Shown here: piece after piece, positions 12,722 to 45,054 of the stretch
Numbering within the stretch: the first letter of the stretch is position 1
Layout: every line of letters starts with the position of its first letter
Assembly (NCBI GenBank): GCA_006503475.1
Contig: RSEH01000097.1
Span: forward strand, 1-64,000
Reading direction: 5' to 3'
Origin: Stentor roeselii
Lineage: Eukaryota > Ciliophora > Heterotrichea > Heterotrichida > Stentoridae
Length of the DNA stretch: 64,000 bases
Notes under the pieces: generated by a model
What the model saw: the letters and a program-made list of their open reading frames with translations, nothing else
The model's database searches: none
What the model was told of the DNA's origin: nothing
Made by a program: the position numbers and the translations under genes

Positions 12722-14110
12722 CTAGATATCATCTTCTATCATCTCATCAACAACCATTTCCAAAGTCTTTTCATCCCCTTTCTGAAACTCATAAACATAG
12801 CTTCCTCTCTTAGGATCAATCCTCCTCTTCGCAACTTCCCGAGCCGGTACAAAGCTCCCTCTAACCGCATCTCCCCGTTTACTAGCAAGAAACCTTCCCG
12901 AATCCCTGATACTGACCATGCTTTTTTCCACAGCTCCATGCCTTTCAATTTCCCTAAGTTCTTTAAAAGGTTCTAAAAATTCAAGTTCAACAACAACAAC
13001 AGAAATATCATCAATCATGACATCTTCTTCTTGACAGACCTCCAACCATCGAAACCTTGCTTCTTCAGCCAAGAGATGAGCGACAGTAGCATTTGAGGTC
13101 TAAATAAAAACTACTTTTACTGGAAATCCAGGCGATTCTGGATTTTTCTGACAAATTTTTCTAAACTTTTCAACAAAATTGATTACTTCCTGACAGTCCA
13201 TCACGTCCCAAACACCATCAGAGGCCATGACAATGAAGAGGTCGCTTCTTTTGTCGAACATGAAGCTATTGCAAACGGGAGTTGAAATTACTCCGATTTC
13301 TTTTCCGATCGAGTCGCCGATTGATCTTGACATGGCTAGGCCTGGAAGAGTTCCTACTTTTTTCCAGACTCGGTAAGGACCTACTTTTATTCCTTGGTCG
13401 TTTGTTAGTTGCTGGACTTTGCCTCCGGCTTTTTTTATTCTTTCGAGCTCTTCTCGGATGTTTGGACGCTGCTCTACTGCGAGCTTTAATGGAACTATTG
13501 AACGCCCGGGGTCTACGATTCGCTTTTGGGGAGTGTAGTCCGGGTCGGAACCGATCATTGCTAGGATTGCTTTTGAATCACCTACACTGCCTATGTGGAT
13601 TACATCGGTGATGATTAAGAGCACAGCCGTACATCCAGAAACCGAAGAATCAATAGTACTACAACTTCTAACCTTCTTATCACATTCATTAATAATCCCC
13701 TTGATATTTTCCTGACCAGCATTTCGAAAAGCATTACAATTCGCAAGAAAATAAGATTTAATCAAATCCTTCACAGTTTCCACAATTTTAACGCCATCAG
13801 TTCCATGTCCATCAAAGACGCCAGCAAGAAAAATTCCATCCTTACAAAGAATCAAAGCACCGTCTTGACATTCTTTATTAATAAGTGACCGAGGGTCAAT
13901 TCCACCCAAGATACAAGAAGAAACATTGAGATTCAGTGAATTATCAGAAAAAGTTTTGAATTCAGTGAAAACAGGCAAAGTTAAAAGAAACTTGACCCGA
14001 TCAGAGCGAATTACTTTGCCCAGCCTGTCACGTTCTTTGATGAGAATAGAGACAGCTTCAGAATAAGCCACATTTTCATTTAGACTGTTGGAAGAGAGAC
14101 AGGGTCCCAT
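12722..14110 (-). CDS. PP2C-family protein phosphatase, two exons
   Basis: 457 residues after removal of a 15-nt intron at 13100-13114 (gtagtttttatttag). Without splicing the frame stops right after FPVKVVFI; with it the frame runs on into TSNATVAHLLAEEARFRW and the C-terminal metal-binding motif DDISVVVVEL. Other PP2C landmarks: GVFDGHGTDG (metal-binding Asp), SVGDSKAIL and MASDGVWDVMD. These support an active Mg/Mn-dependent Ser/Thr phosphatase. The N-terminus MGPCLSSNS is a probable myristoylation/palmitoylation site, so membrane location is likely. The gene converges on the myristoylated 533-residue protein and lies 19 bp downstream of the NPF-motif gene's stop on the same strand. Confidence 0.93.
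13100..13114 (-). other. 15-nt intron in PP2C gene
   Basis: gtagtttttatttag on the minus strand, phase 0. The acceptor TAG is itself the in-frame stop of the unspliced message. Removal joins the two halves of the PP2C domain. Confidence 0.92.
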
Positions 14111-16807: not shown

Positions 16808-18220
16808 CTACTTCCTGAACTTCTCCCTCACCCACTTCATGATATCCAAAGAGAATCCCGCTTCAAGCAGAATAAAATGATCTCCAAGTGCCACATTGGT
16901 TGCATTGATGCTGATAAAAGGAAGATTCGGGTCCGGTATCACGATAGAACTAAGCAGAGCATTAAGGACAGGCAGCACAGTCTTAACCAACAACTGCAGA
17001 GTTTTATTCAAAACCAACATGTTAATCCCTGTCACGTCATACGCTAAAATATTATTCGGCATCTGCAAAGTCAACACATTGGCATGAATAGTAAAGTTCG
17101 ACTCACTCAGTGTCAACGATGTAAAAAGCTGCTGTAAAAGAGTAAATCCTTTTTGAATATTATTCCTTGAAATATTCACGTAAAAGTCCAGTTCGATGCC
17201 GATTTGTAAGTCAATAACTCCTTTGGGAATTGAAAAGTTTAAAGGAGTTCCCCAGTTGTTACAGGCTCGAACTCCGATTATCACTGGGTGGCCTGAACCG
17301 AACTTTTTCTTTAGACTTGGAAAGAGAAATGCAAGGCCGTCAGTCGTGAGTTGCAAGGGAAGGAAACTTGGAAGTGAAGTGATGTTCGTGTTTAAACCTG
17401 ACCAGAGAAGCGTTAGAGGGACCTCGAGAAGGTACTCGGAAAGAAGAAGCAAAAAGGGAAGATTTGAGTCTGACACTGAGGGTAATTGGATTTCAGGGAA
17501 TGGGTAAAAGATTTGCCTTTTTGGGTAGGTTAGGTATTCTGCTCGGATTGGAAGGGTTAGGTAGTTACCTTCTAATATGCTTTCATCGGTTAGACTTATG
17601 TTCAGTTGGGTTTTTAGTGGAGGGATGGGCAGCAATTTTGCGATTGAATACAACACAGGATTAAGTGAGTTTGAGAAAATTCCTGCAACAATTCCTAAGA
17701 TTGTACCCTCAATCAAAAATCTATTCGCATTAATCTCCGCTGCTATCGTTTTTGCGAATAAGTTGAATGGTACACCTAAGGTGACTATTGCATTTTTCAA
17801 CTCTATCGTGGAATTTTGACTGAGATCAGCTTGTAAAGCTCCATTTTGAGTATAGAACTCTATCTGAAGCAATATAAAGCTATTAGGAAAAGTGACATTT
17901 CCCTTTGCCTTGATCTTACCGTCCATAATCATGAAAGTGATGATTGAGTTCAATTCAGTAAAATTGAACTGAATAGTTCCAGGAGCGATGATCGAGATGG
18001 ACTCTTGTTTAAGGCTTAAGGTGTTGTTCATTTGCAAGTTGTACAGAGTGAGTTCTGTTCCGTTTTCGTTGATTGTGATGTTCTTTATCGGGATCAAGGT
18101 CAAAGAATTCTCGACCACCTTCAAAACTTCAACAAGAGCCAACTCGTTCAGACCCACCTTGAGACCTGCGAAGTCGCTCATCACGATCACTGGAAAGATA
18201 AGCACGAAGAGACTTTTCAT
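16808..18220 (-). CDS. BPI/LBP/CETP-fold secreted lipid-binding protein
   Basis: 470 residues with an N-terminal signal peptide (MKSLFVLIFPVIVMS). The pattern is that of the BPI superfamily: a first domain of alternating hydrophobic strands (LTLIPIKNITINENGTELTL), a central Pro-rich linker (LLPIPPLKTQLNI), and a second half with FLPLQLTTDGLAFLFPSLKK and LVKTVLPVLNALLSSIVIPD. Many Asn-x-Ser/Thr sites suit the secretory route. The fold forms a boomerang-shaped tubular lipid-binding protein; members bind phospholipid or lipopolysaccharide. The start codon lies at the edge of a 71-bp tandem array that occupies its whole upstream region. Confidence 0.8.
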   Translation of the reverse strand: MKSLFVLIFPVIVMSDFAGLKVGLNELALVEVLKVVENSLTLIPIKNITINENGTELTLYNLQMNNTLSLKQESISIIAPGTIQFNFTELNSIITFMIMDGKIKAKGNVTFPNSFILLQIEFYTQNGALQADLSQNSTIELKNAIVTLGVPFNLFAKTIAAEINANRFLIEGTILGIVAGIFSNSLNPVLYSIAKLLPIPPLKTQLNISLTDESILEGNYLTLPIRAEYLTYPKRQIFYPFPEIQLPSVSDSNLPFLLLLSEYLLEVPLTLLWSGLNTNITSLPSFLPLQLTTDGLAFLFPSLKKKFGSGHPVIIGVRACNNWGTPLNFSIPKGVIDLQIGIELDFYVNISRNNIQKGFTLLQQLFTSLTLSESNFTIHANVLTLQMPNNILAYDVTGINMLVLNKTLQLLVKTVLPVLNALLSSIVIPDPNLPFISINATNVALGDHFILLEAGFSLDIMKWVREKFRK

Positions 18221-18580
18221 TTATTTCACCAATGAATTGATATTCATTGTTAGAATTAGTTACTCTAGACTTACTTTGATTTTTAAGGACTTTTTACTTA
18301 TTTCACTAATGAATTGATATTGATTATTAGTTACTCTAGACTTGTATTGATTTCTAAGGACTTTTTATTTATTTCACTAATGGATTGATATTGATTATTA
18401 GTTACTCTAGACTTGAATTGATTTCTAAGGACTTTTTATTTATTTCACTAATGGATTGATATTGATTATTAGTTACTCTAGACTTGCATTGATTTCTAAG
18501 GACTTTTCATTTATTTCACTAATGAATTGATATTGATTATTAGTTACTCTATACTTACATTGATTTCTAAGGACTTTTCA
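18211..18580. repeat. 71-bp tandem repeat, about five copies, between two genes
   Basis: The landmark gactttt(t/c)a recurs at 18211, 18288, 18359, 18430, 18501 and 18572, giving spacings of 77, 71, 71, 71 and 71. The left end contains the ATG of the BPI-like gene (minus strand); two right-hand copies again contain ATGAAAAGTC on the minus strand, so the unit looks like a duplicated promoter/start region. The right end forms the last dozen codons of the four-TM gene. The middle copies are nearly identical, suggesting recent amplification or homogenisation. Confidence 0.92.
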
Positions 18581-24886: not shown

Positions 24887-27800
24887 TCACCTAATCATTA
24901 GAAATTCAGTTAATTTCTGAATATTGCTTTCAACTGCTATAATCCTTTGATTAATCTCAATCATCTGTTTATCCATTTGACTCATTTTATTTTCAACCTG
25001 GCCAACCTTCGATTCCCAAACTTTAATAATTTTTTCTTCAGTTCCACTGATGCTATTTTTTATTTCTGTAAATTCTTTTTGTATAAAACAAGAAAGTTGT
25101 TCGATTTTCTGCTCTTGTTTTTTTTCCAGGTATAGAATCTTTCCTTGCCAGTCGATCATTTCGAGTTCCTTTAAAGGTGATAACAATACATGCAAAAACT
25201 GAGGGCTTCCTATTACTTTTTTCCAAAACATCATTTTTTGTATCTGAATAGGGGTTTGAAGTTTTTCTTTGTAGTCGATTATATGCTTTTCAAGTAAAAA
25301 ACAGTCATATGAGTCTCCTAGAATTGAAATTAGCATATTTAACATGATAACAACATTTATGATTTTGGCAACGAAGGTTGAAATGTAAAACAAGGGATAG
25401 TTACTTTGGTTTCCTTCGATTATATCACTTCCAAAGTTATATTCCCAAGAATTATTCCAAATCATATCAAAATCAAATCCATTTTTCATGGAAATAGTAA
25501 AAATTAATGAAAAAAAGAAAGTCATATAGAAAAACGTAATCAAAAAGTACTTAACACTATCCAGTGATGCTATAACAAGCTGAATATAATATCGAGTGCC
25601 ATTAAAAATTCGAAATCCAGCAATTCCTTTATTAAGGATCACAATCCCCAGCAAAAAATCCTCATATTCCGAATCAACTCCAACGAAACCTGCGATCAAC
25701 CAATATAAAAGTAAAACTGAATAAAAGCAATCCTGAATATTCCAAAATCTCAAAGTCATTGAAAAGTTGCAAAATATCGCTTTAATCAATTCCCATACGA
25801 TAAGAAACAAATTGATAACAATAAAAATTGAGACATACACAGGACTAGTCCTTCCAAACTTAACCAACAAAGTAAAAAAAAAGACATTCAAAAAAACCAA
25901 AATTGAGTAAAACATTGCAAAAGGATAAATTGCTTCCCAATTCAAATCAATTAAATTTCTAATCAAATGAGACTCATAAATTCCAGAGATTTTGCAGTTT
26001 TGAATGCAGGTCAAACCTTGAATATTCTTCAATGTAAAAGGACTTAAAATTAGTTCAAAAGGGAGAAAGTTGATTGTTGCAGGGATTTCATTCGGCGAAG
26101 GTTTTAAGTTAAAGTCAGAGATTTTAGGATTGAATGACTGATGCAAGTGAAAAGTTGGAAGTTTTCTTTCTGGAATGACAAGATATTCTTTTTTTAATAG
26201 GATCTTTTGAAGGGCCTGAGGCAGGAGAATGGAAGAATTTTCAATGAGTAAAAAAAAATCGTTTTTTAATGAAATCAAGTTTCTTTGGAAGATTGTTTCA
26301 CTTTCGATTACTATTAAATAATTTAGCATCAAGTCGGTGATATTTTGATGTTTTGATTTTATTGAATAGAAAAAAGGAGACTTTCCGAAGTAGTCTACTT
26401 GAAATGAAATCAGAGAACTTGGTATAAGAAAACGATTTAATGTCTCTATATCTCCCCTCAAGGCTAAAAAGTGAATCAGTTGGTACTTGAAGCAGGTGAA
26501 AAATAAGGAAAAACCCTGAATGTTTAGGAGTTCAAAGTTTGACTTTTGAAAACAATCTAAAACGTTCCAGAATGCCCAACCATCTTGATAATAATGGTCA
26601 AAATCGCTTTGAGGACTTAAAAAGTAATTTTCTAGTCTTGTATAATGCACCGAATCCTGGTGCATGTCTATTTCAGAAAGTCCTATCTTCTTTAGTTCAT
26701 TTAATTGATTTGATAAAAAATTTCTTGAAATATTAAATTTCCCTTCAACCAATTTCGAGTATTTAATTTCTGTTTCCATCTGATATTCAAAATTCTCATC
26801 ATTATCACATTCAATTTCATTAACTTCACAAATTTTCCATATCTTAACATTTCCTTTCGAAGAACTTGCAAGTAAACTCCCATCATAAGAGATTCCAAAA
26901 TAAAAATCCAAACATTCCCTTTGAACAATTTGAAAATCAAGACATTTTTCACTAATATTCCAAATATGAATCCCTTCCTTCCAAACTGAAGAGAAAACAT
27001 ATTTCTCATTATTAGAAAGAGCAAGACTATAGATAATGTCAGCTTCTTTATTTAATGAGAACTCTTCTCGATTCGCTCGAAGGTTCCAGACGCGCAGACC
27101 ATCACCAGAAGACCCGCTGACCAGGAACTGTCCTTGAACTGCTAGTTGAAGGCAAGTCACTGATTTTTTATGTCTAAAACAATCTTCTTCTCTTTGTTGC
27201 TGGAAGTTCCAACGTTTTATTGACGCGTCGCTGCTACCTGAAAAAATCCATTTTAGATCAGGAGAAACTAGAACTGAATTAACTGCATTATTGTGACCTT
27301 TTAGGGTAAAAAAACAAGATTTTTCTAACAGGTCCCAGATTTTTATTGAGGTGTCTGAAGAGCTGCTTAAGAGATATTTATCGTTTATTGAAAAAGTTAG
27401 GGAAAGGACCTGATGTGTGTGTCCTTGTAGTGAAAAAGAAAGAGATCTGGATAATAAATCGTAGATGTAAATTTTTGAGACTTTTCCACCTGCTGCAAGG
27501 AATTTTTCGTCATTGGCTAATGAAATACAGAGAAATGAGTCAGTACTTTGAGGTAAGTTGAACTCTTCTGCACCTGTTTCACTGTTTATAGAATTGATTT
27601 TTCCTTCAGAACAAGAAAAAAAAAGTTTTGCATCTTTTGATAGCACTAAAGATTTGATCGAGTTTTCTGTGACTTGGAACTCTTTTAAGTTGGATCTTTG
27701 AAAAAAATTCCAAAATTTTATATTTTTGATGTTTCCACTGATTAGATTTCCATTTCGGGTAAATATTACTGAATAGGTGCATGTTGACCTTGTGTTTAGC

Positions 27801-29593
27801 TCGAACAACTGCTTTTCATAAAAAATACTCCAAACTTTAATTATTCCATCTTCTGAAGAACTTACTATTTTTTCATTGTCTTTAGAAATATTCACGCATT
27901 TCACTGAGGTTGCATGTCCTGATAATGAAAACTCTTGATGGTTATTCAAAAGGTTCCAGAGTTTTACAGTTTTATCAGTTGAGCCAGTCGCAAGGTATTT
28001 ACCGTTTTCTGACAGTGCTAATGAGTTAACTGAGCTGAAGTGTATTAGCAAAGACCGCTCTAAAGTCCTTGACTGGATATCCCAGATGATTATTGTACTG
28101 TCTTCTGACCCGCTTATTATTTTGAACTCATCTGGAGTCAATGAGATCGAAAAAACTGATGCTGAATGACCTTCATATGAACATTTTTCAGATTTTTCTA
28201 AAAGGTCCCAAAGTTTGATTGAACGATCTTGAGAGCCACTGAGTAAAAAGTTGCTATTTTTCGAGATTTTCAGGCAAAAGACTGACCCTGAGTGACCTTT
28301 TAGGCTGAATTCTTCTTTGTGTAGATGAAAGTTCCAGATTTTTATATTAGAATCAGCATACCCTCCGATAATAAAGCGATCATCTTTACTGATTTCAACT
28401 GCGTTAACTGCATCAGACTCACCATTCAAACTAAATTCAAGTTTTCTTTCTTCAAGATTCCAAACATTAATAATTCGGTCCTCCGAGCCACTTACTAAAA
28501 ACCTTTCAGTAGATGACAAGACCATAGATAAAACACTTCCATTATGTCCACTAAATTCAAAAGACTCTCTTCTTTGCTGCAGATTCCAAATCCTTAAAAA
28601 TCCAGTTGAAAGTGCAGCAACAAGCAATTTTTTATCACAAGAAAACTTCAAATCCTTAACATTTTCCTTCTCTATCAACAACGAAAAACGCTCACAACGC
28701 TTAAAAAATTTCCAGATTTTAATTGATTTATGCCCAGCACTTGCCAGAGTTTTCCCGTCATTCGAAAGCGCAATTGCAGAGATTTGACTATCAAGACCTT
28801 TAAATGTAAAAAATTTTTTTTTCTCAATTAAATCAAAAACTTTTAACTTTTTATCTTCTGAAGAACTTAATAAAAACTTTCCGTCATTTGAGATGATCAT
28901 TGATGTGATCATTTTTCGATGATATCTTAACCTTTTAATTTCTTGCTTCTTTTGGAAGTCCCAGAGAATTATCTCTGAATAGTTTGAAGAACTTGCCAAG
29001 ATCTTCCCGTCTGGAGTGAAGGAAAGATGAACAACTGCTGATGAATGGCCTTGAAGAGAGAATTCTTCTGATGATGAAAAATTCCAGATTTTTATTGAAC
29101 TGTCAACTGAACCTGATACTATAAACTGCTCATCAGGAGACATATTGACTGAAGTAACTCCTTCCAAATGGCAATTCAAACTCATCAATTCTAATCTTTC
29201 TGGAATACTCCAGACTTTTAATGACTTGTCCAGAGAACTGCTTATTAGAATTTCTTCAGATTTTGAAAGATATAAATCAGTCACTGATGATGAATGGCCT
29301 GATAAGGAAAAATTTTCAGTTTTCTCTGATAGGCTCCAAAATTTTATTGTATTGTCTGAAGAACTGCTGATTAGGAAATCATTGGATTTTGAAATTATCA
29401 CTGATGTACAGCTTTTTGAATGGCTTCCGATTGTATATTCGGATTCGCTTTCAAGGGATTTTAGCTTTGATTTCAGAAGTCCGAGAATGATGGTTGAGGA
29501 GTTTTTCGGAGAATGATTGGATTTTGATGAGGAAAGACTCGCTGTTGGATGATTTTGGAGGTAAGAGGAAAGTTTAGAAGGACCTATTTTCAT
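24887..29593 (-). CDS. WD40 x 21 + ankyrin-like + TRP/polycystin-type channel, giant
   Basis: 1568 residues, one frame. After a short Ser-rich N-terminus, about residues 55-975 hold 21 WD40 units by my count of their terminal (I/V/L/F/R/Y)(W/Y/F)xx strands, enough for three seven-bladed propellers. An ankyrin-like segment follows (LIHFLALRGDIETLNRF ... DYFGKSPFFYSI). From about residue 1220 there are six hydrophobic segments, a pore-like loop (MIWNNSWEYNFGSDII) and an S6 with NVVIMLNMLISILGDSYD, close to the TRP/polycystin S6 pattern. A C-terminal coiled coil ends the protein (about 1510-1568). Probably a cation channel with a very large cytoplasmic sensor or scaffold. It is a paralog of 40650-44612. 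Confidence 0.9.
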   Translation of the reverse strand: MKIGPSKLSSYLQNHPTASLSSSKSNHSPKNSSTIILGLLKSKLKSLESESEYTIGSHSKSCTSVIISKSNDFLISSSSDNTIKFWSLSEKTENFSLSGHSSSVTDLYLSKSEEILISSSLDKSLKVWSIPERLELMSLNCHLEGVTSVNMSPDEQFIVSGSVDSSIKIWNFSSSEEFSLQGHSSAVVHLSFTPDGKILASSSNYSEIILWDFQKKQEIKRLRYHRKMITSMIISNDGKFLLSSSEDKKLKVFDLIEKKKFFTFKGLDSQISAIALSNDGKTLASAGHKSIKIWKFFKRCERFSLLIEKENVKDLKFSCDKKLLVAALSTGFLRIWNLQQRRESFEFSGHNGSVLSMVLSSTERFLVSGSEDRIINVWNLEERKLEFSLNGESDAVNAVEISKDDRFIIGGYADSNIKIWNFHLHKEEFSLKGHSGSVFCLKISKNSNFLLSGSQDRSIKLWDLLEKSEKCSYEGHSASVFSISLTPDEFKIISGSEDSTIIIWDIQSRTLERSLLIHFSSVNSLALSENGKYLATGSTDKTVKLWNLLNNHQEFSLSGHATSVKCVNISKDNEKIVSSSEDGIIKVWSIFYEKQLFELNTRSTCTYSVIFTRNGNLISGNIKNIKFWNFFQRSNLKEFQVTENSIKSLVLSKDAKLFFSCSEGKINSINSETGAEEFNLPQSTDSFLCISLANDEKFLAAGGKVSKIYIYDLLSRSLSFSLQGHTHQVLSLTFSINDKYLLSSSSDTSIKIWDLLEKSCFFTLKGHNNAVNSVLVSPDLKWIFSGSSDASIKRWNFQQQREEDCFRHKKSVTCLQLAVQGQFLVSGSSGDGLRVWNLRANREEFSLNKEADIIYSLALSNNEKYVFSSVWKEGIHIWNISEKCLDFQIVQRECLDFYFGISYDGSLLASSSKGNVKIWKICEVNEIECDNDENFEYQMETEIKYSKLVEGKFNISRNFLSNQLNELKKIGLSEIDMHQDSVHYTRLENYFLSPQSDFDHYYQDGWAFWNVLDCFQKSNFELLNIQGFSLFFTCFKYQLIHFLALRGDIETLNRFLIPSSLISFQVDYFGKSPFFYSIKSKHQNITDLMLNYLIVIESETIFQRNLISLKNDFFLLIENSSILLPQALQKILLKKEYLVIPERKLPTFHLHQSFNPKISDFNLKPSPNEIPATINFLPFELILSPFTLKNIQGLTCIQNCKISGIYESHLIRNLIDLNWEAIYPFAMFYSILVFLNVFFFTLLVKFGRTSPVYVSIFIVINLFLIVWELIKAIFCNFSMTLRFWNIQDCFYSVLLLYWLIAGFVGVDSEYEDFLLGIVILNKGIAGFRIFNGTRYYIQLVIASLDSVKYFLITFFYMTFFFSLIFTISMKNGFDFDMIWNNSWEYNFGSDIIEGNQSNYPLFYISTFVAKIINVVIMLNMLISILGDSYDCFLLEKHIIDYKEKLQTPIQIQKMMFWKKVIGSPQFLHVLLSPLKELEMIDWQGKILYLEKKQEQKIEQLSCFIQKEFTEIKNSISGTEEKIIKVWESKVGQVENKMSQMDKQMIEINQRIIAVESNIQKLTEFLMIR

Positions 29594-30765
29594 TTTAAAA
29601 GCGAAGATTATGATGGAAGTGGGTTATTTGGATCAATAAGAGTAATTTATAACGATTTAGGTGAGAAGATTACTATTCTTGATAATTATGGATTATTAGA
29701 ATTATTAAGATGTTTAAGTATAATAGGTTATTTTCTGGAATTTATATTCAGGATTGTTGAGGTAAACTCTTCTCTATAAGTTCATATCTTGATGATTTAT
29801 CAAGAAATTTAGTGATTTTAATCGCTTATCAGATTATAGCAGAAAATATTTGTCAATCAAAATGCATAATTCATTATACGGCAGAGTTATAACTATTCAA
29901 GAATCTTTTTTTAAAGAATTATTTTTTATTTTTCTTTATTAATGTATTTGAGTTAATAATAACACTTTTATAGGCGTCTACCTCTGGTTTTCTAATTTCT
30001 TTAGTGTTTTATTTATATTATTAAATTTCTCAAAGTTTTAAATATATAAGCTAGATACAATTTTAAACACCTTCCAAAATTTAAAATGATATGATTTGTC
30101 TAATAATATCGCAGTCAATCGACATAGATTCCTTATTTTATCGAAGTTCATCTGATAAATATACAAACTAAAAATTCAGTTGAATCTTTAATTTCATTTG
30201 AATGACTTCATACATTTTACTAGAATTAATGATGCAATCATCAACTATAAATTATATCATCAAACTAAGAATATATTTTTTTAATGCAATTTACACAGAT
30301 CATCTTTTCATTTCTTCTGACAACACAGATAGGGTTGACCCAGAACCTTGAGCTTGGAAAGGACCAGTCATGAGAGTTGATCACAATCTATTGAGAAACT
30401 TTTCTGTAAAATTAAGGAAACCCATCTCGTGTCTAGCAAAAAAAGGTTTACACACAGGGGTAAATTATCATAAAATTTAGAATTAATAAATACTAAATCA
30501 CATATAATTATTAGTTTCATCATTTGGATCTTAGCTTATTTCTTTTTAAGTAAAATCATTACGCATTTGATTTTTTAGGTTATTTGGCATTCTTTTCAAT
30601 CTTTTTTAAAATTTGTCTAATGAAACTATTGTTTAACTGATGGAAAGCTAGATATTCTTTACATCTTGCAGTACAGAGCTCATTAGGTGATTAAGATATG
30701 TTTGATATAAAAATTTTTAGACAAAATTCAAAGGGTCTTGCTTTTTATATAATCTATATTAATAA
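29594..30765. other. 1.2-kb intergenic region between divergent genes
   Basis: AT-rich spacer between the WD40 channel start and the first B-box/WD gene. It holds one short frame resembling a signal peptide (30284-30373, listed separately). Roughly the last 80-100 bp before 30766 resemble the region before 32448, so the promoter was probably duplicated with the B-box/WD gene. Confidence 0.6.
30284..30373 (+). pseudogene. Possible remnant of a secreted-protein gene start (29 codons)
   Basis: ATG at 30284 opens MQFTQIIFSFLLTTQIGLTQ, which looks like a ciliate signal peptide, and the frame stops at 30371-30373. The following 100 bp are less AT-rich than their surroundings but contain many stops in all frames. 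I see no 15/16-nt intron that would rescue it. It could be a decayed gene 5' end or chance. Confidence 0.25.
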
Positions 30766-32005
30766 ATGTTTTGTAGATATCAGGGCTGCATAGGACATAT
30801 AAAAGCCGCTTGCCAAACCTGCCAAGACAATAAATTTCTGTGTGGAAATCATTATTGGATTCATCTTAAAGAAACAAAACATAAAATTATTACACTTGAA
30901 GATGATGATATTAGCATATTGATCAAACACAAATATAATCTTGACTCTAAGATTTCAAACTGTATCTTTCAAATCACCCAAGATACAAATCATATCATCT
31001 CAGCATTGACAAATGCCGCTAAAAATGCAATAGGATCCCTTAAAATGATTAATAGTAATTTGGATGATATTAGCCAATTTACTGAAGTCGTATTCAATAA
31101 AAATAGAGTTTCGCTTATTTTAAATGAGATTGGTTTAATTTGCACTGAAATGCGATTTTTTCCTGAAGATCAAATAAAAATATTATCAGATAAATCAAAA
31201 ATTTATAAAACAAATATTAAATCACTTAAAAATTCTATCAATAATTTAAAAATTCAGATATCTCAAAAAGACTCTATGATAAAAGACCTCAAGACTGATC
31301 TTTATAAAAATGATGAAATCCAAATTAAAAAATTATCAGATAAATCAAATATTTATAGAGGAAAAATTAAATCACTTAAAAATTTGGTCAATGAATTAAA
31401 TCTCCAAATTACTGAAAAAGACTCTATCATAAAAGACCTCAAGACTGAACCTCATAAGAAAAATAACATTGAAAAATTACCTTTAAGTAAGCAGAGTACC
31501 ATAACCCAGCCAGCTCCAGATCAGTCGATTCCTCAGCCAAACTCCAGTCATTAGTAAATAGATTTTAACCTAAGAAAGCTTCAAGAAAAACTGGATCATG
31601 TAAAAAAAACTTGGAACTTCGTTGTCACATATTCAAGTTCAATAGATATTTTGATCTCGGATGATAAAAAATACCTATTTTACTGTAATGATCATGCAGG
31701 TATGAAAGATTAAGATTGTAAACTATATCGAAGACAGTAATCCTTAAGGAGCTTGTAACTTTTATCAAAGATAGTAAATTATATTGAAGACAGTAACCTT
31801 CATTGAAGATAGTAAAAGATATTGAAGACAGTAGTCTAAATGTTAGAGAGTAATTGATACTTATGTAATTAATATAGAAGACTGTATCAGCGACTTAGTG
31901 ATTGTTTGGAACTTGGAGTTAAAGAAATACGAGCAAGAATGGCCAGATGATTCTAATTCCTCATATAAAAGAAGATGGGTTAATCGCTACCCAGAGTGCA
32001 GATAA
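30766..32005 (+). CDS. B-box-like zinc finger + coiled coil + WD40 blade protein, copy 1, with mini-intron array
   Basis: Exon 1 (30766-31546) encodes a B-box-like Cys/His region (CRYQGC ... CQTC ... CGNHYWIHLKETKH) and a long coiled coil with an internal repeat of about 49 residues (LSDKSKIYKTNIKSLKNS, LSDKSNIYRGKIKSLKNL). A 15-nt intron (31547-31561) leads to exon 2 (31562-31699: LRKLQEKLDHVKK through SDDKKYLFYCNDHA). The array at 31700-31898 follows, and the last exon (31899-32005) gives LIVWNLELKKYEQ to YPECR and stop. Exon 2 plus the last exon make one WD40 blade. Length is 350 residues with nine microexons, or 341 if the array is removed whole. Conservation with copy 2 supports every part. 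Role unknown; the architecture suggests a ubiquitin-linked or scaffold protein. Confidence 0.8.
31547..31561 (+). other. 15-nt intron, B-box/WD gene copy 1
   Basis: gtcattagtaaatag, phase 1, a GTC rather than the usual GTA donor. Removing it restores the frame from PNS into FNLRKLQEKL; this exon boundary is conserved in copy 2. Confidence 0.8.
31700..31898 (+). other. Mini-intron array: tandem 15/16-nt GTA..AG units separated by triplets (copy 1)
   Basis: Reading from 31700: 15-nt unit, att, 16, aca, 15, ctt, 16, ata, 16, aca, 16, ata, 16, aca, 16, aga, a 31-nt stretch (15+16), act, 15, ending at 31898. Each unit starts GTA and ends AG (for example gtaacttttatcaaag, 31755-31770), except the 15-nt half at 31850-31864, which lacks AG. 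The triplets at 31715, 31734, 31752, 31771, 31790, 31809, 31828, 31847 and 31881 join to DYTYNNNKN in the frame of both flanking exons. Because the triplets total 27 nt, removing the whole block as one 199-nt intron also keeps the frame. Which happens cannot be told from DNA. Confidence 0.75.
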
Positions 32006-32447: not shown

Positions 32448-33521
32448 ATGTTTTGTAGATATCAGGGCTGCACAAGGAATATAAAAGCTGCTTGCCGAAC
32501 CTGCCAAGGCAGCAAATTACTGTGTCGAAAGCATTACTGGACCCATATTGAAGAGGAAAAACATCAAGTAATCACCCTTGAAGAGGATGATATTCGCAAA
32601 TTGTTGAATCATAATCACAACCTCAACTCTAATATTCTAATTTGTATATCTCAAATTACAAAAGATACAAATCAAATGATCTCAGCATTGAAAAATGCAG
32701 CTAAAACTGCAATAGATTTCCTTAAGAGTGTTAATAGTCATTTGGATGACATTAGCCAATTTACTGAAGTCTTATTCGATAAAAATAGAGTTTCTTTCAT
32801 TTTAAATCAGATCGGTTTGATATGCACTGAAATGCCGATTTCTCCTAGAGATCAAGTAAAACGATTATCAGATGAATCAAAATTTCATAGCAAAAATAGT
32901 GAATTGTTTAGCAATTCGACTGATAATGTTAAGATGCAGATTCCTCAAAAAGACTCTTTCAAAAAAGATCTCAATTGTGATTTAACGACCAAAAGTAAAA
33001 GCCTGATTGTACCTTCAAGTAATGAGACTCCAAAAATCAAAACAGCTCGAGACCAGCCGATTCTTCAGATAAAAAATGGTATTTCTGAATAGATTTCAAT
33101 CAAATGAAGCTTCAAGAAAAAATAAATTTTGTGAAAAAATATTTGAGCTTTGTTTTCATTTATCAAGATACAAGAGAAGTTTTGATTTCATATGATAAAA
33201 AGTATCTATTTCACTGTAATGACTATAAAGGTATGATAGATTAAGATTGTAATATAAATCAAAGACTGTAACCTTCAACAAGCTTGTAACTTTTATCGAA
33301 GATAGTAAAATTCATAGAAGATCGTAACAGATATCAAAGAAGAGAGTAGTCTACATTGAAGATAGTAACTTGTACTTAGGTAATCGATATAGAAGAATGT
33401 ATCAGCTAGATTAGTGGTTGTATGGAACTTGGAGTCAAAGAAATATGAGCAAAAACTCCTAGATGAGTCTAATATGAACTATATAAAAAGATGGATATAT
33501 CGCTACCCAGAGTGTAGATAA
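32448..33521 (+). CDS. B-box-like zinc finger + coiled coil + WD40 blade protein, copy 2, with mini-intron array
   Basis: Tandem paralog of 30766-32005. Exon 1 (32448-33078) keeps the Cys/His pattern (CRYQGC ... CRTCQGSKLLCRKHYWTH) but has only one coiled-coil repeat unit. Exon 2 (33093-33230, 138 nt as in copy 1) reads MKLQEKINFVKK to SYDKKYLFHCNDYK. The array is at 33231-33414. The last exon (33415-33521, 107 nt as in copy 1) gives VVWNLESKKYEQ to YPECR. Length is 300 residues with microexons included. The exon 1/exon 2 join needs a 14-nt GT..AG segment (33079-33092), one base short of the usual length; either a real 14-nt intron or a one-base deletion that damages this copy. Confidence 0.7.
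33079..33092 (+). other. Putative 14-nt intron, B-box/WD gene copy 2
   Basis: gtatttctgaatag sits where copy 1 has a 15-nt intron. Only a 14-nt removal restores the conserved downstream frame. It is shorter than any other intron in the window, so a frameshifting deletion is a fair alternative. Confidence 0.5.
33231..33414 (+). other. Mini-intron array (copy 2)
   Basis: Reading from 33231: 15-nt unit, att, 16, act, 15, ctt, 16, ata, 16, atc, 16, aagaga, 16, ata, 31 (15+16, with AG|GT at the internal junction), aat, 16, ending at 33414. All units begin GTA and end AG. The exonic bases join to DYSYNQENK in frame with both sides, the same length as copy 1. Relative to copy 1, one 16-nt unit is missing (aag and aga are contiguous) and the last unit is 16 instead of 15 nt. 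The whole block is 184 nt. Confidence 0.75.
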
Positions 33522-35461: not shown

Positions 35462-37027
35462 ATGACAACCCTAATAATGTCAAAGGTAAATCTCTCCGAC
35501 CTAATCGACGAGATCGACCGAGAAGACTCTCACCCGACTTCCTCTAAAAGTACCTTAAAAAAGCGTTTAGAGTCAATATCCAAGCACTCAGTAATCCTTA
35601 TCTAGAAGCTCGTTCCATACGGTACCAGTGCTTACAAGTCCTTAGAGCGTCAAGCAGCCTACAAAGTGGCTTCCTCCGAGATATCCTCCTGGCAAGACAC
35701 AATCTCCACGAATCGTTCTTCCAAACAAGTCGACCTGACACAAGCCCTTCCCGCTCTTCCGACTCTCGAGCAGATAACAACAGACCTCGAATCAAGCGGC
35801 TTCCGGGCAGAGGTCAACAAAGCCTTAGGTCTAAAGTCAGAGCCTTTAAACCAAGAAACCAATGAAGAAGCAGGTCAACGTTCAAAGGTCCGAAGCGACC
35901 AGTTCCACGAGTATCAAAAGCAAAAGCGAATCGCGAAGATTAAAAGTAAACTTTATCATAAAATCCGCAACAAAAGAAAAGATAAAACTTTAATGACTCA
36001 TGAAGAACAAGCAGAAGATGAAGACTTGAAAAGGATCGAAGAACGTGTCAGTCTTCGTCATTCTGCTGCGAAACTTAGGAAAAGTTTTGGAAGATATGCG
36101 AAAGATGATGGAAAAATTATCATTTCTCAGAATGAAGCCTTGAGACAGAGAATTAGGAATCCTAGCAGAGTCAATTCTGCTGGGCAACTTGTTTTTGATA
36201 GCTCGAGTGATGAAGAGTTCTTGGCTGAGCAGCTTGGACTGGAAATCACCGAAAATGACTCTTTGATGAATATGAAGTTCATGCAGGATGCTCAGAAAAG
36301 GCAGAGGGAGAAAAATGACTTGAATGCTGAGACACTTCTTAGTGACTTGAATAGCTCTAAGTTCAAATTTGATGGAGAAGCAGATGAAAAAATCAACAAA
36401 AAACAGAAGAGAGGTGAAAATGAGTTGGAAAAAGGGAAAAAAGATTTGAAGGGGAAAAAAGATTTGAAAGGGAAAAAAGAATTGGAAGGGAAAAAAGAAT
36501 TGAAAGGGAAAAACAATGATGAAAGGGTTTTGAATGGCAAGGATCAGAAGGAAGGACTTGAAGGTAATTGAAATGAAGGGAAAAATGAAGGGTTGAAGAA
36601 AAAGGGAAAAAAATTAGGTCAAAGTGAAGAACAGATGAAAATTGTTGAAGAAGCTTTCGAAATGGATGAAATGGACAAGGTCGCTGCTGAGGAATGGGCA
36701 AGAGAAATGGATGAAAAAAAGGAAAAAGAACCGAAGATGAAAAAAGGTTGGGGATCTTGGTTTGGAAGTGGAATCAAACAAAATCAATTCACTCCTGTAC
36801 CTGTTCATAAAATCGATAAAGTCATTCATTCTGATGAACGAGACAAACGAGCTGCGAAGTTCCTAGTTAAAAGTATCCCGTTTCCTTTCAAATCTTCTAA
36901 ACAGTTCGATTCTGTCAATAAAATACCTGTTGGAAAAGAATGGAACTCGAAAAAAGTCTTCCTTAAACAAATAGCTCCGGATGTCTTGACTAGAGATGGA
37001 GAAATCATTCAACCAATTTCTAAATAA
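35462..37027 (+). CDS. UTP14: UTP14-like SSU processome protein, three exons
   Basis: 511 residues from the ATG at 35462 (506 if the in-frame ATG at 35477 is used). Two 15-nt introns at 35591-35605 (gtaatccttatctag) and 36564-36578 (gtaattgaaatgaag) connect three pieces. Family marks: SSWQDTISTNRSSKQ near the N-terminus, RIAKIKSKLYHKIRNKRKDK, SAGQLVFDSSSDEE, GWGSWFGSG, and a C-terminal block with VIHSDERDKRAAKFLVKSIP and FPF, then PVGKEWNSKKVF. UTP14 is a U3 snoRNP component that activates the helicase Dhr1/DHX37 in 18S rRNA maturation. A Lys-rich minisatellite expands the linker before intron 2. Confident. Confidence 0.95.
35591..35605 (+). other. 15-nt intron 1 of UTP14
   Basis: gtaatccttatctag, phase 0, with the acceptor TAG as the in-frame stop when unspliced. 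Removal links the N-terminal exon (DLIDEIDRED ... SISKHS) to KLVPYGTSAYKSLERQ. Confidence 0.92.
36425..36514. repeat. 18-bp coding minisatellite in UTP14
   Basis: About five copies of an 18-bp unit encode KGKKDL/KGKKEL inside the disordered Lys-rich linker of UTP14. The period is a multiple of three, so the frame is unaffected by copy number. Confidence 0.88.
36564..36578 (+). other. 15-nt intron 2 of UTP14
   Basis: gtaattgaaatgaag, containing an in-frame TGA. Removal joins GLEG to KNEGLKKKGKKLG and so to the conserved C-terminal UTP14 block. Confidence 0.93.
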
Positions 37028-40649: not shown

Positions 40650-43600
40650 TTACGAAGGAAGTCTGGTTAAAATGGTTTCCAGCTTCTGTGAAAGTTCTTT
40701 CATTGTAGATTCAAGAGAACTTACTTTCTCCGTCAGTCCTTGAGTCATCTGATTCATATTTTCCTCGATTTTCCCGACTTTTTCCTGTATTTTTTCAAAT
40801 CCGTTATTAGAAACTGAAACTTTTCCTCCAATTTCTTGAATTTTTTCAGTGATTTTCAGCAGGTTCTCAGAGTTTTGACTAAAAAGTGAATCAAATCTTC
40901 TATCAATCAAATTCCTGACTTCCAACACCTTTCCCTGCCATTCAGAAGTTTCAGTTTGATAAGCATTGACACAAACATGAAGATACTTCCCCACGTCAAC
41001 CCTTCCAGAAATAGAGAAAATTTCTTCAATCTCCAAAATGGCCTGAGTCATTTCCCGACTATCAAAATAAACAGAAAACAACTGAAATTCATCAAAAGAG
41101 TCTCCAAGAATAGAAATGATCATGTTTAACATCAGAATCACATTCAAGAAAATCGCAATCATATAAGTAAAGTAAATCAAGTCAAAATTATCATTTTTCA
41201 TCGATGCGAAGTCTCCCATGCCCACTGAAAACGAAATTCCCCAGAGTATCTCAAAGTTAACTTCAGCCTCTTTTGAAGCGATATCAAGCAATCCAAATGA
41301 AAGGACAGTATAAACAAAAATCAGTAAAAAACTCTTAATATTCATAATTGAAGCGATAATTAAACCGACATAGTACCTGGTTGTATCAAAAGCGCGAAAA
41401 CCTGTGACTCCTCTGACAAGATTAAGCAAAACAACAAACCACTTAACATTCCTCAGAACCTTTCCTTCACTCATCACATTTTGCAGAACTAGCCATAAAG
41501 CAGTAAGAAAAACTCGAAGTAAATCAATGATATTCCAAGAATCTCTCAAATATCCCCACCCCGAGTTAATCAACTGCATAATTTCCCAAACAAACAACAG
41601 CGAGTTAACAACAATAAAAGCAATAAGAACCATTAAATAACTTCCCGTTATTTCTAAATTTTCTGATTTTTCTGAACTTTTTGCGTTGTGGTCGACAAGA
41701 ACTGTAAGAATAACAAGATTAATCCAAAGAAGTGCAGTGTATGAATAAGTCCAGACCCGTATCGACTCCCATCGATTTCTGATGAAATTTTTAACAATCG
41801 GCATTTTGTACAAGTCTCGATTCGTGCATCTCAAAAAAGACGAGAGCAGTTCTTTGCTTGTCTCTGAGCCAATCGTTGAAGGCATCTCGAATAAAGACGA
41901 CTGAAACAACAGAGGCTCTTGGTCTGTCTGTTGTTCAGAGACGAAGTCCACTGGGCAAGGGTTGATGGAAGAAATGAACTGAACGGCAGTGAAAGGGACT
42001 CCAAAATAAGGAGGTTCTTGTTTGGTGTACAGACATTTTGATAGAAAGTTGCAGATACTGGGGGAAGAGTTCAGGATAATCACTGACAAATCGTTTCGAA
42101 CTGAGTAAAAAAGAGGACTGTAGACTTCTAGTTGACTGTCCTCTGCCTTGGCTATCAGAAAATCGAGAAGCAAGTCAGTGATTGTCTGGAATTTCGCATT
42201 TATTGAGTAAAAAATCGCTGACCTGCCTAAACCATCAGCTCGAAAATAAACGGCTTCGGATTGGAGAAGGTCAGTGATTATTTGAGTCTTTCCTTTAAAA
42301 GCTGCGAGGTGAAGAGGGGTGAACTTCAAGTTGCTGATAAGTACTTTCCATGATTCAGGCTCTATTAGAGAGAAATCATCGTAAACTATTGAATTCAACG
42401 CGTTGTGAAAAATAGAGAAACTTGAAAGTCCTTCATCGAAAATACTTAAAGGGTCGAATTTTCCATTTGGAAGAAATACTTTTATATCAGGTCTTCCTTC
42501 AACAGGCACAGCAGGTTTTACATCTTCTGGGTTTTCGTTGTTTACTGTGAAAGTTTCATAATTTTCAGAAAATCTGATCGACCGGTTTTCAATTGAATTT
42601 CCGAAAAGACTTGTTAAGGGATCTTGCTTGACTAGTTCCCAAACAGCTATTTTATTATCATCGCTTCCAGTGAAAAACTTTTTACTTGATGAATCGAATT
42701 CAACGGAAAAAACTCCTTTTTCATGCACTTCGAACTTTGATTCTAGTATTTTTTCTTGGAAGTTCCATAAACAGAAACTGCCGTCAAATGAAGATGAGAT
42801 TAGATATTGTGAATCTGGACTGAACTTCAAGCAACTCACTGCGTATTTTGAGTTTTTGTAGCTTAGGTCAAGGCGAGCGTGCTTGAAACTCCAGAATTTC
42901 ACGAATTGGTCCCTGTCGCCTGTTACGATTGTCTGGCCATCTGGACTGACCGCCAATGAATGAATAATAACCCGTGCGTTATCAAGAGTCAATGCCAGTT
43001 CTTTACTCGGTACTCTCCAGACAGAAATATTCGAATAAGCCGCTGCTGCCAAATGAATAGAATCTGGGAAGAACTGGGCACAGCAGACATGGCCTGAATG
43101 TCCCGATTCTGGTTTCCAGAACATCTCAAAATTCGAACAAGTCCAAATGAGAAGCTCTCCTTTGCGGTGATAATTGATATACCCAGAAGCCCCTGCCAGG
43201 TACTGCCCATCAGGACTAAAAGACACGGAATTCACTTCAGCAGAAAAACCTTCTAATTTCAATTTTGTCTCTTTTAATGAAATATCGAAGATCTGAAGGG
43301 ACCTGTCACCTCCTCCTAATGCCAAAGAAAGACCGTCAGGGGAGAGATCCATGCAAAGAACTCCATCATTTGAGTGAGTCAAGCGAAATGACTCACTCCA
43401 TCCTTCAGTTTCCCAAAAAATCAACTCTCCTGAATGAGCCATGTAGATACTTCCTGAGTTACTCATCAGAAACTTCTTGTCTTTCGAGAGAAAAATTGAA
43501 GATATCGAGTTTTTGTGACCTTCTAAGAACTTTGGACTTATTTTTGATGATAATGACCAGAAAGCGATTTTAGAGTCTGCGGAACAGGAGATGAAATTTT

Positions 43601-44612
43601 GGTTATCTTTGAAAAATTGCACTCCTAAGACAGAATCACTGTGAAAATCAAGACGATGGACTTGTTTGCGACTTTTTATATTCCAGATCCTCACTGTTTT
43701 ATCTAATGACCCTGAAATCAAGAAATTTCCATCTTTTGAGTAAGCGACTGAAAGAACATCGTTTAAGTGACCTGATAATACAAATTCCTGTGATCGGCTT
43801 GAAATGTTCCAAATTATTATCAGATGGTCTTCTGAAGCTGATGCGATAAATGATGAATCCGGTGAATACGCTAAGCCTTTAACAGCTTTTTTATGTCCTT
43901 TTAGTTCAAGTTCCCATCTTTTCGCAAAAACATTATGAAGTTTAAGTCCACCATCATCTCCAGCAGAGAAGAAATATCTTGAGTCTCTACTAAAAACAAT
44001 GCAAAAAGTAATCCCAGAGTACATAAACTTATGTTCTATAGCTTTTTTCTGAATATTAAACATAACGATGTCTTTTTCCATAGAGCCACTCACATAATAC
44101 TTCCCATCAGGACTAAGAGCGACAGCCATGACTTGCCATTTATGAACATTTGCATTATTTAAAGGTTCTTCTTTTCTCATTCTCATGTTCCAGACCTTGA
44201 CAGTCCTGTCATCAGAGGCGCTAGCGACAAGACTTGCGTTATCACAGATGGAGACAGAATTGACTTTTCCTCGATGACCACTGAATTTCGCCATCAGGCT
44301 CTTCGACTGGACCATCCAGACACAGACAGAGAAATCAGAAGACCCGCTTACGGCGTACTGCTCGTCTGTGGTCATCGACATCGAGTTTATTGAAGCGTTG
44401 TGGGGCTGAATCACTGACACTCGGCTGAACTGCTCGTCAAATGATGAGTTTTTCTGTGATTCGATGAAAGAAACTGCTTTTTTTATTTCTTGGATGTCGG
44501 CAGGGTCGATTATTTTTAAGTCTTTTTTTGAATCTAAGGGCTTTGGAAGATCTAATTGTTGAGTTATTAGAGGCTCGGTCATTTGAGGGTCCATTTTTAT
44601 AACAGAAATCAA
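40650..44612 (-). CDS. WD40 x 14 + ankyrin + TRP/polycystin-type channel, giant
   Basis: 1320 residues, paralog of the 1568-residue channel. Residues about 70-665 contain 14 WD40 units by my count (two seven-bladed propellers; for example SGHLNDVLSVAYSKDGNFLI). Ankyrin-like repeats follow at about 760-840 (FTPLHLAAFKGKTQIITDLL, LGRSAIFYSINAKFQTITDL). Hydrophobic segments from about 960 to 1180 include an S6 with LNVILMLNMIISILGDSFDE. A coiled coil (about 1235-1320) ends the protein. This copy has a more canonical ankyrin region but one propeller fewer. Probably a cation channel whose propellers bind cytoplasmic partners. Confidence 0.9.
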   Translation of the reverse strand: MISVIKMDPQMTEPLITQQLDLPKPLDSKKDLKIIDPADIQEIKKAVSFIESQKNSSFDEQFSRVSVIQPHNASINSMSMTTDEQYAVSGSSDFSVCVWMVQSKSLMAKFSGHRGKVNSVSICDNASLVASASDDRTVKVWNMRMRKEEPLNNANVHKWQVMAVALSPDGKYYVSGSMEKDIVMFNIQKKAIEHKFMYSGITFCIVFSRDSRYFFSAGDDGGLKLHNVFAKRWELELKGHKKAVKGLAYSPDSSFIASASEDHLIIIWNISSRSQEFVLSGHLNDVLSVAYSKDGNFLISGSLDKTVRIWNIKSRKQVHRLDFHSDSVLGVQFFKDNQNFISCSADSKIAFWSLSSKISPKFLEGHKNSISSIFLSKDKKFLMSNSGSIYMAHSGELIFWETEGWSESFRLTHSNDGVLCMDLSPDGLSLALGGGDRSLQIFDISLKETKLKLEGFSAEVNSVSFSPDGQYLAGASGYINYHRKGELLIWTCSNFEMFWKPESGHSGHVCCAQFFPDSIHLAAAAYSNISVWRVPSKELALTLDNARVIIHSLAVSPDGQTIVTGDRDQFVKFWSFKHARLDLSYKNSKYAVSCLKFSPDSQYLISSSFDGSFCLWNFQEKILESKFEVHEKGVFSVEFDSSSKKFFTGSDDNKIAVWELVKQDPLTSLFGNSIENRSIRFSENYETFTVNNENPEDVKPAVPVEGRPDIKVFLPNGKFDPLSIFDEGLSSFSIFHNALNSIVYDDFSLIEPESWKVLISNLKFTPLHLAAFKGKTQIITDLLQSEAVYFRADGLGRSAIFYSINAKFQTITDLLLDFLIAKAEDSQLEVYSPLFYSVRNDLSVIILNSSPSICNFLSKCLYTKQEPPYFGVPFTAVQFISSINPCPVDFVSEQQTDQEPLLFQSSLFEMPSTIGSETSKELLSSFLRCTNRDLYKMPIVKNFIRNRWESIRVWTYSYTALLWINLVILTVLVDHNAKSSEKSENLEITGSYLMVLIAFIVVNSLLFVWEIMQLINSGWGYLRDSWNIIDLLRVFLTALWLVLQNVMSEGKVLRNVKWFVVLLNLVRGVTGFRAFDTTRYYVGLIIASIMNIKSFLLIFVYTVLSFGLLDIASKEAEVNFEILWGISFSVGMGDFASMKNDNFDLIYFTYMIAIFLNVILMLNMIISILGDSFDEFQLFSVYFDSREMTQAILEIEEIFSISGRVDVGKYLHVCVNAYQTETSEWQGKVLEVRNLIDRRFDSLFSQNSENLLKITEKIQEIGGKVSVSNNGFEKIQEKVGKIEENMNQMTQGLTEKVSSLESTMKELSQKLETILTRLPS

Positions 44613-45054
44613 TGGACTTGGTGAAAATCGCTGGAGTTGACGGGTTGGATTTGTGCATGAAGGAGAATTGGATGATTTGTTTAGATTTTATTTGGATTTT
44701 ACTTTTTTTGGATTTAGAATTTTCGAATTGAGGTCAGAGGCGAATTTATTAAATGTTTATTGTTTTAGTATGACTAATTGACCTGGAATTTAGAATAAAA
44801 GAAATAGTTGATTATTGCTCTAACTTGATTTAGATTGTTGAACTTACTTTATTAGATAAATTCCAAAATCTAATGAACTTAAAATAGTCTTGTGAATTAC
44901 TCCATCCACATTCAATCACCCCAAACCAAACTACTTCACTCTCAATCCCCAACATCTAAACTCCTAAAAACTTAAACTCTCAAACCAGCAAAAATAATTC
45001 AACAATCTACCACATCCAAGTCATCATCCAAGCAGTCCACACACTTCAATAATA
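44613..45054. other. 442-bp divergent intergenic region
   Basis: Spacer between the channel start and the CBM20 gene start. The right half is C/A-rich on the plus strand just before the ATG at 45055. No gene is seen. Confidence 0.6.

Follow-up and report, generated by a model that had tools for sequence, protein, structure and literature searches.

The window analysed here is a stretch of 64,000 nucleotides, positions 1-64000 of contig C2 of a 44.39 Mb assembly of 522 contigs, and other C numbers below denote contigs of the same assembly. Under the standard genetic code, long open reading frames occur across the window. One protein of the window has an exact match in a jgi-sourced record; its next ten matches, environmental records, are 50-70% identical, and the Blepharisma stoltei and Stentor coeruleus proteins among the matches listed are 30-44% identical. 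The source is thus probably a heterotrich-like ciliate. Two of the genes, A and its tandem paralog B, each carry a run of very short GT..AG units immediately ahead of the last exon. The predicted structure of these genes is as follows.

30766..31546, plus strand: gene A exon 1, an open reading frame (paralog query match at 30766) encoding a Cys/His (zinc-finger-like) N-terminal domain and then a coiled coil
31547..31561, plus strand: gene A intron GTCATTAGTAAATAG, 15 nt, A at position 10, phase 1
31562..31684, plus strand: gene A exon 2, terminating in ..DDKKYLFY plus T (phase 1)
31685..31699, plus strand: intron 1 of array A (GTAATGATCATGCAG), 15 nt, abutting intron 2 and leaving a zero-nt exon
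31700..31898, plus strand: rest of array A, introns with nine single codons, ATT ACA CTT ATA ACA ATA ACA AGA ACT
31850..31880, plus strand: irregular unit of array A, 31 nt, in which the AG|GT of the paralogs has become AT|GT
31899..32005, plus strand: gene A last exon, IVWNLE...RYPECR, stop
32448..33215, plus strand: upstream exons of gene B
33079..33092, plus strand: 14-nt candidate intron within the upstream exons of gene B
33216..33414, plus strand: array B, 11 introns of 15/16 nt, intact
33415..33521, plus strand: gene B last exon, VVWNLE...RYPECR, stop

The label of the N-terminal domain is based on the invariant Cys and His positions in an alignment of copy B with ten paralogs, and an intron at the site of 31547..31561 is also present in several paralogs. 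Exon 1 of gene A contains an internal 150-bp tandem duplication (31164-31463, the two halves 81% alike) that gives rise to two copies of a 50-residue coiled-coil-like piece, of which gene B has a single copy (32846-32995). Candidate 14-nt introns resembling the one in gene B were also seen in C151 and C124.

The first-pass annotation had described GTA...AG units around nine triplets between two coding exons of gene A, and these units can be read directly in the sequence. The introns at 31685-31699 and 31700-31714 abut and are followed by ATT; seven introns come after it, with one codon behind each (ACA, CTT, ATA, ACA, ATA, ACA, AGA), and the array is closed by the 31-nt unit, then ACT and a 15-nt intron at 31884-31898, behind which the last exon begins. 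The unit size originally given, 15 or 16 nt, holds for every unit but the one before ACT, which measures 31 nt (31850-31880). This unit is the counterpart of two abutting introns (15+16) in most parsed paralogs (compare 33365-33395 in B), and in copy A it may be spliced as a single 31-nt intron or may be damaged. The segment 31685-31699 had been taken for exon and is actually a 15-nt intron, the paralogs having varying 15/16-nt GT..AG sequences there. Owing to this extra intron, the joined peptide is no longer read as DYTYNNNKN and becomes ..FYYTYNNNKNLIVWNLE (YYTYNNNKNL). The exons of array B are 0, ATT, ACT, CTT, ATA, ATC, AAGAGA, ATA, 0 and AAT, which joined give FHYYSYNQENKLVVWNLE. The predicted peptide spanning the join contains ..KYLFHYYSYNQENKLVVWNLE..

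Introns of the same size are predicted in two other genes of the window.

13100..13114, minus strand: intron GTAGTTTTTATTTAG of a PP2C-like gene, 15 nt, GT..AG, A at position 10
36564..36578, plus strand: intron GTAATTGAAATGAAG of a gene that we take to be Utp14-like, 15 nt, GT..AG, A at position 10

The window was scanned for independent introns in the form of GT..AG bridges of 12-44 nt that lengthen open reading frames by at least 60 codons. Six bridges of 12-20 nt were found, including two of 15 nt, compared with none in a control with reversed signals. The 15-nt introns of the PP2C-like and Utp14-like genes support the intron size rule; the Pfam PP2C match of the former gene is the same with or without splicing. 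Elsewhere in the window, an 18-bp coding repeat (KGKKDL/E, 36431-36527) lies just upstream of the 15-nt intron of the Utp14-like gene, a 71-bp tandem repeat of five copies (18211-18578, 92% matches) borders two minus-strand ORFs, and two large minus-strand proteins (24887-29623 and 40650-44687) are rich in WD40 repeats, their C-terminal part having, we presume, the look of a membrane channel.

Chains of at least three such introns with exons of 0, 3 or 6 nt occur twice in the window, with 9 and 11 introns. Markov resampling produced none in 60 windows totalling 7.68 million strand-bases, and the control DNA, 147,028 strand-bases from the rest of the window and four tubulin loci, contained none either. 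Genome-wide, a pattern of two 16-nt units around NNN gave 169 matches and its reversed form 12, while two 15-nt units gave 280 matches and the reversed form 14. A three-unit pattern matched twice in viral contigs, both times in what by eye are simple tandem repeats. A family exon adjoins 51 of the 64 distinct pattern clusters that were placed among the 15/16-nt matches listed, and two further clusters (C27, C99) were parsed as family members. When the clusters were shifted by 30 kb, a family N-terminal exon lay upstream in 0 of 128 cases.

Similarity searches within the same genome returned 15 DNA matches and 51 protein matches, the window's own included. A genome search with the N-terminal exon of a paralog, in which 150 of 172 candidates were scored, yielded at least 129 matches at E 0.001, and one with a last exon yielded 85 at E 0.01. 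Since the family C-terminal exon was detected no more than 3 kb from only 55 of 128 N-terminal matches, an array is not established for many of the latter. The same array lies at the same gene position in many paralogs: 25 arrays were parsed, from 24 of 41 fetched regions. The remaining 17 of the 41 gave no full parse under strict anchors. Among them, C30, C51, C82, C244, C370, C410 and C116 have such introns ahead of a family-like last exon, C400, C23, C39a, C429a and C110 contain intron chains, C39b is decayed, and inspection of the fetched regions revealed no array in C429b, C486, C407 or C358. One decayed relative of the arrays (C39:26201-26375, L085) is without some donor sites and is possibly a pseudogene.

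The 25 parsed arrays span 115-308 nt, and a complete array holds 8-13 introns. The long array of C30 has 45 marked introns over 1114 nt, 32 of its 44 gaps being 0, 3 or 6 nt. Arrays were counted as complete if all of their exons were at most 6 nt; this left 17, with A, C521, C92, C124, C306, C309, C166 and C383 excluded. Twelve of the 17 were discovered first by DNA or protein similarity and five by the spacing pattern only. Tests on these paralogs are not fully independent, as paralogs share ancestry.

In parsing the arrays, exon length was left free, intron length was restricted to 15 or 16 nt, and the scoring favoured A at position 10, so that the figures for intron length and branch position are partly built in whereas exon length is unconstrained. 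Of the 191 exons between 1 and 12 nt long, 190 have a length divisible by 3, and 184 of them are exactly 3 nt. The full tally for the 25 arrays is 47 exons of 0 nt, one of 1 nt, 184 of 3 nt and six of 6 nt, in addition to nine longer exons of 17-27 nt, some of which are not multiples of 3. Of the 272 array introns, 114 measure 15 nt and 158 measure 16 nt, no other lengths being allowed. With scoring that favoured it, A stands at position 10 in 92% of the 15-nt introns; among the 16-nt introns, for which position 10 was favoured over 11, A is found at 10 in 90% and at 11 in 32%. The array introns share the 15/16-nt GT..AG form of heterotrich tiny introns, with a few 14-nt candidates as well.

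When the 17 complete arrays are joined in the true frame, no stop occurs in 157 codons, while the other frames have 15 stops in 157 codons and 6 in 140. Over 5000 shuffles of the 3-nt exons, the mean was 7.1 stops and the minimum 1. If the arrays are instead read unspliced, all 25 hit a stop. An intron interrupts codon 2. In 16 of the 17 complete arrays this codon specifies an aromatic residue, written with five codons (TAT, TAC, TGG, TTT, TTC), a difference from the interior triplets with p = 4.6e-4; the exception is C6, with TTG. Under a simple joining rule, stops appear in 4 of the 25 parses (A, C124, C166 and C383). Four irregular arrays, chosen after the pattern was already known, were joined by hand, namely C166 (with a GC-AG unit), C124 (a 14-nt unit), C400 (a twin intron) and A (the 31-nt unit), and all are open with the pattern Y[YW]..VW/IW. 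The claim of the first-pass annotation that successive mini-introns surround single-codon exons in one joined frame is strongly supported by the many paralogs, given exon lengths that are multiples of 3, stop avoidance restricted to the joined frame, and an aromatic residue that spans a junction.

The joined proteins of 12 of the 17 complete arrays are 260-337 aa long, and the other five are those of C173 (630 aa), C151 (196), C506 (126, at a contig start), C27 (125) and C99, where the locus ends. Their layout is an N-terminal Cys/His motif, a coiled coil and then a hairpin, and in eleven aligned family proteins certain C, H, Y and VW positions are invariant. The joined residues resemble a WD40-like hairpin whose loop varies, the C-terminal piece as a whole resembling one WD40 blade. 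The hairpin follows the pattern Y-[YWF]-x(3-8)-[LMV], with L in the second place in C6, and continues with x-V-W in 15 of 17. The core is 6-11 residues long, with 6 in C356, and mean pairwise identity is 16% in the loop interior and 56% in the near flanks.

We built a WD40 profile from 29 repeats of two other genes in the window. On this profile the 17 joined blades score 4.2-21.9 bits, compared with a mean of -2.4 and a maximum of 5.8 for shuffled sequences; the blades of C481, C98 and C99 do not exceed this best shuffle. The true order of the core scores above shuffled orders (p = 8e-4), in a comparison where shuffling also displaces the conserved end residues. The profile did not distinguish inclusion of the triplets from their skipping, with p = 0.38 while four non-WD rows were still part of it and 0.18 once they were taken out, nor, with those rows present, the true joined frame from the other two (p = 0.89 and 0.42). 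No Pfam WD40 match exceeded its cut-off, and no Pfam family accounts for the protein, the Pfam and PDB matches being weak or of coiled-coil type. Among 5.8 billion proteins, a single-protein query found no spliced homologue, and an alignment query found no spliced homologue and one fragment of the N-terminal exon.

Taken together, we assign a probability of roughly 0.84 to the reading that the array is a series of spliceosomal mini-introns removed singly, leaving single-codon exons that encode the turn of a WD40-like hairpin, in units of a minisatellite-like kind. Each 15/16-nt intron, defined by GT, A at position 10 and AG, would be spliced out alone, and what remains would be single-codon exons, all in phase 1, with zero-nt exons at two conserved places where introns abut. 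Intron length would be set by a short ruler running from the donor to the branch A at position 10 and on to the acceptor 5-6 nt further. Because a ruler of this kind would make each intron self-defining and the size of the exon nearly irrelevant, neighbouring introns could be removed in turn, and they would presumably have to be, as the footprint of the spliceosome likely exceeds one unit. The joined codons would then form the turn of the WD40-like hairpin at the C-terminus of zinc-finger-like/coiled-coil proteins. An 18-19-nt unit of intron plus codon could be gained or lost in the manner of a minisatellite, altering the loop by whole residues with no frameshift, and such variation of the loop may be useful.

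The evidence also bears on other ways of reading the arrays. We regard it as very unlikely that the whole array is one intron made of minisatellite units whose triplets are absent from the mRNA. Dropping all of the triplets does preserve the frame (FYLIVWNLE in A), and the WD40 profile scores inclusion and skipping alike, but GT, A10 and AG repeat unit by unit in many paralogs, stops are avoided only in the true joined frame, and the conserved aromatic residue spans a junction; in addition, two independent introns of the window are 15 nt long and heterotrich introns are 15-16 nt. It is unlikely, too, that the introns are spliced while the codons are variably skipped to give several loop lengths per gene. 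To skip one codon, an intron would have to be 33-35 nt long, compared with 14-16 nt for the inferred introns, and passages of PMC9505925 on S. coeruleus suggest that exon skipping may not occur there, intron size being constant, even though nearly all short exons are multiples of 3 nt and skipping would stay in frame.

Decay into non-functional satellite DNA within pseudogenes would fit the broken internal acceptor of copy A, the decayed look and lost donor sites of C39:26201-26375, and the stops in 4 of 25 parses. Against it stand the absence of stops in the 157 codons of 17 arrays, the open joined proteins of 260-337 aa in 12 of 17, and the eleven that align with invariant Cys/His, Y and VW, which together make this explanation highly improbable. 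As this is a ciliate genome, the units might also be tiny internal eliminated sequences, kept through incomplete elimination or present in germline DNA, and TA direct repeats do flank each 18-19-nt unit, as neighbouring units both begin with GTA. This is barely credible: excision between TA repeats would take the codons away too, AG ends and A at position 10 are marks of splicing, and passages of PMC9942856 put the first short length peak of such sequences in Blepharisma at 65 bp. Internal eliminated sequences specifically of the Blepharisma type were rejected on length, the units being 15/16 nt (18/19 with the codon) and the peaks starting from 65 bp. Introner elements were rejected as well. 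The pattern GTAACCTACANNGAAG matches 68 times on 22 contigs, its reversed form once, and is not dispersed in unrelated genes; a family exon is nearby, or an array was parsed, on 20 of the 22, the others being C39 (a decayed copy) and C237 (unplaced).

Returning to the reading of singly removed mini-introns, growth by copying of an intron together with its codon, as the first-pass annotation had proposed, is visible in C30, C51 and C23, but recent duplication is not general in the 17 complete arrays. Near-identical copies of an intron plus TTG lie side by side in C30, C51 has identical copies of an intron pair plus ACT, and C23 has copies of an intron plus TTC. Across the 17 complete arrays, the likeness of 16-nt introns is 0.66 within an array and 0.61 between arrays, the latter equal to the site-frequency expectation, and that of triplets is 0.32 against a random level of 0.31; it is from these near-background values that recent duplication is judged not to be general there. 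Nine pairs with identical introns have triplets that are 0.52 alike, as recent copies should be.

Recent duplication is also visible in arrays of C8 (151494-151592), C127 (30-227 and 229938-230135) and C227 (1002-1370), all of which lie downstream of a family N-terminal zinc-finger-like exon. These arrays consist of 33-nt units of two 15-nt introns and one codon, set mostly end to end, with nearly identical introns and diverse codons; one of the C127 arrays is at the contig start, and in the second these units run on the opposite strand. The comparison used all 3 rows listed for C8, 6 of the 12 for C127 and 9 of the 17 for C227, in which 1-5% of intron sites differ versus 44-67% of codon sites (60-67% of codon sites and 1-5% of intron sites in C127 and C227 alone). 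The remaining C127 rows are repeats of those compared, and the remaining C227 rows are mostly of different make-up. This contrast suggests diversifying selection on the presumed codons. C30 and C51 have the opposite pattern, which together with the values for the 17 arrays means that the codon-diverse pattern is not general. A tentative and somewhat doubtful extension of these observations is that a coding minisatellite of intron plus one codon serves as a generator of hypervariable loops, with codons swapped, added or lost singly under diversifying selection. The repeat would be hidden by splicing, and the near-identical introns would provide the homology for unequal exchange.

If the reading of singly removed mini-introns is true, the spliceosome can take out about ten introns in a row with one codon or none between neighbours. 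Such an arrangement would be denser than any micro-exon run that we recognised in a literature search, and it would test what is minimally needed to define an exon or an intron. It would also constitute a route to new introns and to codon-by-codon variation of a protein loop without frameshifts. Such genes would probably be missed or broken by gene predictors not designed for 3-nt exons. Our literature search, which covered few subscription papers, recognised no published report of consecutive single-codon exons.

Zero-nucleotide recursive splice points are abutting GT..AG|GT..AG pairs, as are present in the arrays. A stwintron is an outer intron whose donor, branch or acceptor is interrupted by an inner one, as described in passages of PMC9024468. 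By inspection, C400 may hold a donor-interrupted twin intron, as removal of one intron recreates the next donor, whereas the common array pairs simply abut; compared with stwintrons, the array pairs are far shorter, usually number two per array at conserved places, and lie within a codon array. Other close relatives are the tiny introns of heterotrichs. Passages of PMC9505925 give S. coeruleus introns a length of 15/16 nt and a nearly fixed branch A, which is at position 11 in 16-nt introns, and parts of PMC9942806 likewise give 15/16 nt for heterotrichs. The array introns are like these tiny introns of Stentor coeruleus and Blepharisma stoltei, as portrayed in such excerpts, in being 15/16 nt, GT-AG and AT-rich with a fixed branch A, and the 15-nt introns also agree with the heterotrich ones in having this A at position 10, but unlike those of S. 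coeruleus the 16-nt introns of the arrays have A at 10 and not 11. The same portions of PMC9505925 indicate that most intron-bearing S. coeruleus genes have one intron and that some annotated genes have more than eight, which the authors doubted were all spliced. The arrays differ from S. coeruleus in having 8-13 introns per complete array, each abutting the next or one codon away from it.

Runs of short symmetric exons are a feature that the arrays share with the micro-exon genes of Schistosoma, which in sections of PMC10526429 are said to have very short exons in runs, mostly multiples of 3 nt. By that account the introns of the Schistosoma genes measure 0.1-5 kb and their exons mostly 15 bp, whereas the arrays have 15/16-nt introns and single-codon exons in tandem-repeat register. 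Intron gain by tandem duplication, in which a duplication over intron and exon gives a new intron (excerpts of PMC4974935), differs from the arrays, where the repeat unit is a whole intron plus exactly one codon, many times over. That exceedingly small exons can be spliced is reported in parts of PMC4674806 for a single-nucleotide exon of Arabidopsis APC11 and of PMC7392893 for a 3-nt exon of Drosophila hth; these appear there as isolated cases, and the arrays are consecutive runs. Should splicing and codon diversification both be confirmed, the arrays would be more than a recombination of known parts. Each of the known relatives shares one part with the arrays, and the arrays combine these parts in a new way.
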